From: Thermotoga sp. SG1
GTDB lineage: Bacteria > Thermotogota > Thermotogae > Thermotogales > Thermotogaceae
Assembly (NCBI RefSeq): GCF_002865985.1
Contig: NZ_LNDD01000004.1
Location: 1 to 64,000 of the forward strand
Direction of reading: 5' to 3'
Length of the DNA: 64,000 bases
The notes under the pieces were generated by a model. It worked only from the letters and a program-made list of their open reading frames with translations, made no database searches and was not told where the DNA came from. How positions within the stretch are numbered: the stretch's first letter is position 1; every line of letters begins with the position of its first letter. Below are positions 25,843 to 43,040 of the stretch, piece after piece. Both the position numbers and the translations under genes were made by a program.

Positions 25843-25905
25843 ACTTTCCCTCCTCATAATGTATAATTGAATTGATTTCCATCTTTTACTTTGGAAGGAG
25901 TTTCT

Positions 25906-26292
25906 GTGTTCAGAGTTCTTGGTTGGATCAACGTGGGTCTTTTGATTTTCAATCTTTTTCCTTTTTTCGTGAGGGTCATATATAAACTGAAAAGAGAATC
26001 TCGCCTTCTATTCCACATGATGAATATAGCAAAATACTTCAGAAAATACCACAAACTTTCAGGGTTAGTGTTGATCGTTCTTGGTTTTGTCCATGGATAT
26101 CTGGCTCTGGGTGGATACATCTACTTCCACACGGGCACACTTTTGTGGATTCTCATCACGACCATGTTTCTGATCTACCTTCTTGGAAAACTGCGTTTTT
26201 TCAGAAGACACTGGATTATCTTTCACAGATACCTCGGTGTTTCTCTTCTGGTGTTCCTTCTGCTTCATCTTTTGACCCCATGGCTCTTTTAA
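25906..26292 (+). CDS. four-helix membrane protein with conserved histidines (ferric-reductase/cyt b561-like)
   Basis: A 128-residue integral membrane protein with about four transmembrane helices. Histidines sit in helix-bordering positions: FHMM, YHKLSG, FVHGYLAL, YFHTG, FHRYLG and LLLHLL. The pair FVHGY and FHRYLGVSLLVFLLLHLL resembles heme-b ligation in ferric reductase-like or cytochrome b561-type proteins. The following gene, 11 bases away, encodes exported cytochrome-b5-like domains, so the two could form a membrane electron path. GTG 25906 follows GGAAGGAG; a TATAAT lies about 40 bases upstream. Heme binding is inference. Confidence 0.65.
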   Translation: MFRVLGWINVGLLIFNLFPFFVRVIYKLKRESRLLFHMMNIAKYFRKYHKLSGLVLIVLGFVHGYLALGGYIYFHTGTLLWILITTMFLIYLLGKLRFFRRHWIIFHRYLGVSLLVFLLLHLLTPWLF

Positions 26293-26303: not shown

Positions 26304-26906
26304 ATGAAGGCTTTGATGGTGTTTCTTCTACTGGCAGTTACCATGATCTTTTCCATTGACCCAAAAATTATTGAAGAGAGTATCCCGAGTTATCCATTGA
26401 TATCCTATCAGACTTTGAAGCAAAACGATGGTAAGAACGGAAAAGTGTGGGTAGCCGTAGGAGGTTTTGTTTATGATCTTACCGAATCAGATGCCTGGTA
26501 TAAAGGTACACACATGGGGCAGCACGATGCCGGGGAGGAACTAACCTACGAAATTTTGAAACAGTCACCTCATGGTCTGGTTAAACTGGATGGAAAGAAA
26601 ATCGTAGGAATCCTTGCGTTCACAATGGATGATCTCAAAAAATTCAATGAAAAAAACGGAAACAAAGCGTACGTTGCAGTGAACGGAATAGTCTACGATG
26701 TGACACATTCAAAGGCATGGAGAAACGGTGAACACATGGGACGGCACAGTGCAGGCTCTGAACTCACGCACGAGATCTTGAAGCTTTCTCCGCACGGTCT
26801 TTCTAAGCTTTCCAACGTCTATCCTGTGGGTGTTCTGGTGTTCACCCTGGATGATTTGAAAAAATTACTCCGGAAAGAACGGAAAGAAAGCCTACGTAGC
26901 AGTTGA
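26304..26906 (+). CDS. exported tandem cytochrome-b5-like protein (frameshifted before its third repeat)
   Basis: Signal peptide (about residues 1-17), then repeated cytochrome-b5-like heme/steroid-binding domains. Repeat 1 has GGFVYDLTESDAWYKGTHMG, then QHDAGEELTYEIL and SPHG; repeat 2 has NGIVYDVTHSKAWRNGEHMG, RHSAGSELTHEIL and SPHG. The two His sites per repeat (HMG-x-H and SPHG) fit the family's heme ligands. After FTLDDLKK the frame runs into LLRKERKESLRSS and stops, while a complete third repeat continues in another frame (next entry). The six-A run at 26859-26864 is the likely break: five A's would give an in-frame linker of the same length as between repeats 1 and 2. Confidence 0.75.
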   Translation: MKALMVFLLLAVTMIFSIDPKIIEESIPSYPLISYQTLKQNDGKNGKVWVAVGGFVYDLTESDAWYKGTHMGQHDAGEELTYEILKQSPHGLVKLDGKKIVGILAFTMDDLKKFNEKNGNKAYVAVNGIVYDVTHSKAWRNGEHMGRHSAGSELTHEILKLSPHGLSKLSNVYPVGVLVFTLDDLKKLLRKERKESLRSS

Positions 26907-27147
26907 AGGAATCGTCTATGATGTTTCGTACTCCAGGGCATGGAAGAACGGAAACCACATGGGGCAACACAGCGCTGGAGAAGATCTCACATACGAAATC
27001 GTGAAACTCTCTCCACATGGTTTGGAAAAATTGGAAAATGTGTATCGAGTGGGATTCCTTGCTTTCAAAGAAGTACCGGAAGGTTTCGTTCTTGAAGGAA
27101 GCATACTGTACAGAGAAGGGTTGAAAAGGGGCTTCATTCTTCACTGA
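26860..27147 (+). pseudogene. third cytochrome-b5-like repeat, cut off by frameshift
   Basis: In the frame one base away from the preceding gene, the sequence reads KNYSGKNGKKAYVAV, EGIVYDVSYSRAWKNGNHMG, QHSAGEDLTYEIV and SPHG, then VGFLAFKEV and a C-terminal tail. It is a full third domain as well conserved as the first two. It has no start codon or ribosome site of its own before the domain, so it is translated only if a slip occurs at the A6 tract. It may be a fresh mutation, a sequencing error or programmed slippage. Confidence 0.7.
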
Positions 27148-41704: not shown

Positions 41705-43040
41705 ACGAAGTTCTACAACCGAAGAAAAGAACTTGACTTTTTTCAAAAGGTAAAAGGCAAGGCGCATTGGAAAGACTACATTGATAAGAAAAGTCTTCGA
41801 AGATACAGAAGCCTTTTACTACTTTGTGGAGGTTAAGAAAGAAGAGACACTCCTGAGAGATCTGAGTTTCTCTTTCTCAAAAGCCGTGTACAACAGCTGG
41901 TACGATTTATTCTCTGAACTCTTCAACAGATACGAGTACATCGTGTTCGATGAGTTTCAAAATTTCCATAAGGTGAATCCGGATATCCTCTACGCTCTTC
42001 AGCACGCATGGGACGATAACAAAAACAAAACAAAGCTGATCGTACTCGGCTCTTATGTGGGTTTAATGAAGAACATCTTCACGAATGAAAAGATGCCGTT
42101 GTTTGGCCGAGCAGACAGCATCATCAACATCAAAGAATTTCCTCTTGGTGAAACAATTTCCATGTTAAAAGACTTTGGATACGATGTTTGCGAGGCATTC
42201 CAGATATACGCAATGGTGGGAGGTGTTCCAAAGTACCTGTGGCTGTTCAAGGACAAAAGAGACATCGAGCAACTGATCTACGACATCTTCATCGATGAAT
42301 TTGCCCCTCTGAGAGAAGAGGCAAGGAACCTTTTGATATCAGAATTCGGTTCAGAACACAAGACGTACTTTTCTATACTGGAAGCAATTGCAGGGGATAT
42401 GAAATCACTGTCTGAAATTTCCGATTCTTCTGGTATAGATGTAACAAAGCTTTCCAAATACCTGAGCGAGCTTTCGGAGGTCTACGAGATACTGTCAAAA
42501 GAGCGTCCTTTGCTCTCCGAAAAAAAGAGGAATTACAAATACAGGATCAAAGATCACTATTACAACTTCTTCTTCAAAAACATCTACAAAAACTACTCCA
42601 TCATGGAATACGCCCCAGAAAAAGCTCTTGAAATCGTCTGGAGTAACTTCAATCAATACATGGGCTTCCAGTTTGAAGAGATATGCAGGCAGTTCCTTCT
42701 GGAAAATCCCAGCCTTTTTGGTTTCACCCCGAAAGCCATTGGAAAGCACTGGGGAAGGGTTCCTCACAGAAAGAACGAATCGTACGATATAGACCTTGTC
42801 GCATACGATGAGGAAAACGTGTTGTTTGGGGAATGCAAGTGGTCTAACAAAAAAGTGGGAGAAGAAGAATATCGAAAACTTCTTCTGAGGAGTGAATACG
42901 TGAATACTGGAAAAAGAAAAAAGATCTACGCTCTGTTTTCCAGAAGCGGCTTCGAAGAAAAACTCCTGAAAATGAAGAGTGAAAACCTGTTTCTCATCAC
43001 ACCAGGAGATATGATGAGGGTGTATGGAGTAGTAGAATAA
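41705..43040 (+). pseudogene. DUF234-type archaeal-like ATPase, broken N-terminus
   Basis: The downstream frame (open from TTG 41781) carries the ATPase middle (EYIVFDEFQNF as Walker B, VLGSYVGLM), a helical region and a C-terminal DUF234-like nuclease domain (YDIDLVAYDEENVLFGECKWSNKK, a D...ExK core). Upstream, still in that frame, is RRIGKTTLIRKVFED, the P-loop, but a stop (41751) precedes it. In another frame just before lies KFYNRRKELDFFQKVKG, the usual protein start, preceded by ACG where ATG would be expected. So the start codon is lost and about 20 codons plus the frame are missing ahead of the P-loop. The first Gly of GRRR is also gone. Confidence 0.7.

Follow-up and report, generated by a model that had tools for sequence, protein, structure and literature searches.

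In Thermotoga sp. SG1, the gene for a predicted exported protein with cytochrome-b5-like repeats is interrupted by a frame change of one base between its second and third repeats. We consider this break to be probably a recent and genuine one-base indel, standing at the onset of decay of the b5 gene at a locus that is being lost from Thermotoga. The window (the whole stretch of DNA analysed, 64,000 nt) contains the break and the following features:

25891..26292, + strand: partner gene for a 133-aa four-helix membrane protein, intact (supported by its open reading frame, homologues and invariant histidines)
26304..26906, + strand: first frame of the b5 gene, 200 aa, running from a signal-peptide-like N-terminus through repeats 1 and 2 to a stop reached after about 13 residues read out of frame
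26442..26609, + strand: cytochrome-b5-like repeat 1 (core)
26661..26831, + strand: cytochrome-b5-like repeat 2 (core)
26859..26866, + strand: site of the single-base frame change, AAAAAATT, located from the sequence and the repeat spacing
26884..27054, + strand: cytochrome-b5-like repeat 3 (core), read in the second frame and retaining every conserved position; nearest solved structures 6nzx and 6vz6
27055..27147, + strand: C-terminal tail in the frame of repeat 3, similar to that of the Thermosipho group (L023, L025, L088)

The spacing of repeats 1 and 2 is an exact multiple of three nucleotides, whereas repeat 2 (start at 26661) and repeat 3 (start at 26884) begin 223 nt apart, which corresponds to 74 codons plus one base. 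Thus, AAAAAATT contains one base too many. The usual spacing of successive repeats in relatives is 73-74 codons. The A run at the break consists of six A (26859-26864) and is followed by TT, which permits the excess base to be either A or T. The original prediction had proposed that five A would restore the linker; that one base is in excess held true, but since this base may also be a T, an A5 original state is one possibility and no proof. Translation is predicted to stop approximately 13 codons past the shift, which would result in a two-repeat protein without repeat 3 and the tail. The open frame that contains repeat 3 and its own tail (26860-27147) differs from that of repeats 1 and 2. 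Re-initiation downstream of the break was considered and rejected: the first start codon in the downstream frame is the ATG at 26959, which lies within repeat 3, so that re-initiation could not give an intact repeat 3.

Matches to the family PF00173 were found for repeat 2 (26622-26837, 30.7 bits) and repeat 3 (26872-27060, 28.6 bits) above the cut-off of 23.7, and for repeat 1 (26409-26564, 22.4 bits) slightly below it. A candidate haem-ligand histidine pair (in G-x-H and S-P-H-G) is present in all three repeats. The axial histidine pair is invariant across 25 homologous repeats as well; these were picked with a pattern demanding the histidines, and their invariance is therefore not independent evidence. 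The solved relatives in PF00173, 6nzx from a Hadesarchaea archaeon (PMC7096707) and 6vz6, share the domain and the histidine pair with each of the SG1 repeats, but they are single chains of 78 residues, whereas SG1 encodes several domains in tandem behind a signal-peptide-like N-terminus. An AlphaFold2 model of repeat 3 reached a mean pLDDT of 47.9, too low for use.

Comparison of the repeats clearly showed that the third one carries the marks of selection. Its core is identical to that of repeat 2 at 42 of 57 residues, and it matches all 19 columns with a conservation of 90% or more among the 25 homologous repeats (18 of 19 for repeats 1 and 2 each). Between repeats 2 and 3, 11 differences fall on first, 7 on second and 36 on third codon positions; this predominance of third-position differences indicates that repeat 3 was under selection until recently, and the retention of all highly conserved positions indicates that the frame break is recent. 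By its family match and conserved residues, repeat 3 is a genuine cytochrome-b5-like repeat. Sequence, PF00173 matches and spacing together confirmed the original prediction that two repeats in frame are followed, after the A6 run, by an equally conserved third repeat out of frame.

Homologues of the b5 gene were found in 44 of 103 Thermotogota genomes. We translated 27 long homologues, for example from Marinitoga lauensis and a Thermosipho MAG, and left out a few shorter ones (such as the 102-aa frames in G091 and G095). All 27 contain three or four repeats, some of them degenerate, in a single open frame; the search for two-domain-only orthologues that had been proposed as a check found none among them. 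The multi-repeat proteins of Marinitoga lauensis (L089/L006) and Thermosipho sp. (L088/L025) agree with SG1 in the repeat spacing, the exported-looking start and the four-helix neighbour, and the SG1 tail is of the Thermosipho type; these relatives are, however, unbroken where SG1 changes frame between repeats 2 and 3. Genome contigs scanned with the two-repeat protein as query yielded no relatives, and scanned with the repeat alignment they yielded two homologues. A plasmid collection returned no match, and the literature on Thermotoga b5 proteins or haem returned nothing relevant.

Closer to SG1, the gene is absent from all 13 other Thermotogaceae genomes searched. In the sister Thermotoga species G007, a short syntenic relic riddled with deletions (L055:8554-8796) retains pieces of both the four-helix gene and the beginning of the b5 gene. 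The two genes that flank the locus in SG1, one PhoPQ-related and one encoding a DUF429 protein, border the relic in unchanged order. Broken b5-repeat genes were also found in two genomes of another family of the phylum: the gene in G038 (L093) contains several stops and frame changes, and in the gene of G041 (L019) a frame change separates the first repeat. These two breaks are independent and lie elsewhere than the SG1 break. The relic and the two broken copies thus show that loss of the gene is recurrent and that the shift site is not conserved.

Since the relatives are unbroken and the sister species keeps only a relic, a recent loss-of-function mutation is the most likely explanation. The unbroken homologues and the lineage-specific break are what is expected of a pseudogene. 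The ancestral gene would have encoded an exported Thermotogota protein with three or four b5-like repeats and would have lain next to the gene for a small membrane protein, putatively a di-heme cytochrome b. In SG1, a recent indel of one base after repeat 2 and before repeat 3 would then have truncated the product to two repeats, with repeat 3 and the tail missing. The excess base would accordingly be really present in SG1 DNA, and the function of the b5 protein would be reduced or lost. The SG1 break may represent an early step in the loss of the locus from the genus Thermotoga, and the G007 relic a later stage of it. Of the three causes offered originally, a recent mutation is thus the one best supported, by the unbroken homologues, the G007 relic and the conserved repeat 3; sequencing error found little support and slippage fared poorly.

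An error of sequencing or assembly in the homopolymer run, with a true gene that is unbroken and encodes a three-repeat protein, is the second most likely explanation, though unlikely in our judgement. The break sits in a homopolymer run and no relaxed constraint is seen in repeat 3. Furthermore, in a survey of frame transitions most isolated BLAST-supported frameshifts were expected to be sequencing errors (PMC3711429), which counts for an error and against an indel. As a control, 187 G007 genes were aligned to 264 kb of the SG1 genome, which covered 61,147 aa at a median identity of 83%. None of these 187 genes showed a further isolated frameshift of one base, and 195 A/T runs of at least six lie within unbroken coding stretches of the SG1 assembly, both of which argue against an error at this site. 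Moreover, the affected gene is precisely the one that is a relic in the sister species and broken in two other genomes. The controls lower the likelihood of an error but are not decisive, because the genus offers no intact counterpart of the b5 gene.

The frameshift survey flagged two split genes, which were rejected as candidates, one being an over-extended ORF start and the other an extensively degraded gene. Elsewhere in the window, an ATPase gene (41781-43040) has lost its start codon and the stretch before the RRIGKT motif (near 41755) in comparison with its earlier-starting G007 homologue, and is probably a deletion pseudogene and no homopolymer slip. An extensively degraded remnant is present on SG1 contig C4 (approximately 112500-112950), and its counterpart is intact in G007.

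Transcriptional or ribosomal slippage at the A6 run, which would produce both two- and three-repeat forms, is very unlikely. The conserved repeat 3 and tail directly after an A run would fit it, and there is a precedent in tssM1 of Citrobacter, where slippage at a poly-A tract rescues a broken gene (PMC4256274). In both genes, an A run is followed by a domain that is no longer in frame; tssM1, however, has an A11 tract with measured slippage, whereas the run in SG1 is a common A6. This run is shorter than the A runs of more than seven reported for transcriptional realignment (PMC3711429). The + strand of the window contains 79 A runs of at least six, and the b5 gene itself holds an A6 (26637) and an A7 (26650) that are read in frame. 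Because the A6 run is short and common and the earlier runs in the gene stay in frame, slippage is unlikely here. Local RNA folding was ordinary, no better than that of shuffled sequences (z -0.96), and revealed no stimulatory structure near the site. In addition, no relative changes frame at the same site, the long homologues being single-frame and the breaks in G038 and G041 lying elsewhere. Neither a conserved frame change among homologues nor a slippery run of adequate length, which characterise slippage genes, was thus found.

We give equally little credence to the proposal that the two-repeat protein is a selected, functional form in the species of SG1. Repeats 1 and 2 retain nearly all conserved positions and the partner gene is intact, so that a protein with these two functional-looking repeats could still work. 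Against its being a selected form, none of the 27 long homologues has just two repeats, and degradation of repeat 3 has not begun. Also very improbable is a phase-variable A6 run that, by slippage or by indels, yields exported forms with two and three repeats and thereby keeps repeat 3 under selection.

The probable indel affects a gene that is part of a recurrent pair. Besides SG1, 43 Thermotogota genomes contain homologues of the upstream partner, the relic in G007 being counted among them. Partner and b5 homologues co-occur in 36 genomes, and in 24 of these they are at most 1.5 kb apart. Five histidines of the partner are invariant in 19 aligned sequences, forming two H-x13-H pairs and one loop histidine. 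Its transmembrane helices with paired conserved histidines are typical of membrane cytochromes, and together with its homologues (L035-L054) it probably constitutes a family, as yet without a name, of di-heme membrane cytochromes b. Searches of Pfam and NCBIfam returned no match to the partner at E <= 0.01, and no solved structure related to it in sequence was found. A model folded without an alignment was all-helical, with an implausible single long helix. Among the di-heme membrane cytochromes b, the b561 family has been described (PMC7096707). By analogy with such proteins, the SG1 partner may exchange electrons with the exported b5 repeats across the inner membrane. The ancestral b5 protein may have been a haem protein located outside the inner membrane that accepted electrons from the membrane cytochrome or donated them to it.

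The frameshift itself is ordinary, a snapshot of early decay whose later stage is visible in the sister species. More interesting is the pair of b5 protein and putative membrane cytochrome b, which is common among Thermotogota without recognisable ALAD and ferrochelatase. A survey of these two haem-synthesis enzymes in the 103 Thermotogota genomes detected ALAD in four and ferrochelatase in none; haem, if it is used, is therefore probably scavenged. The presence of multi-repeat b5 proteins where ALAD is scarce and ferrochelatase absent suggests haem scavenging or the use of another cofactor. How such anaerobes obtain or use haem thus becomes a testable question.
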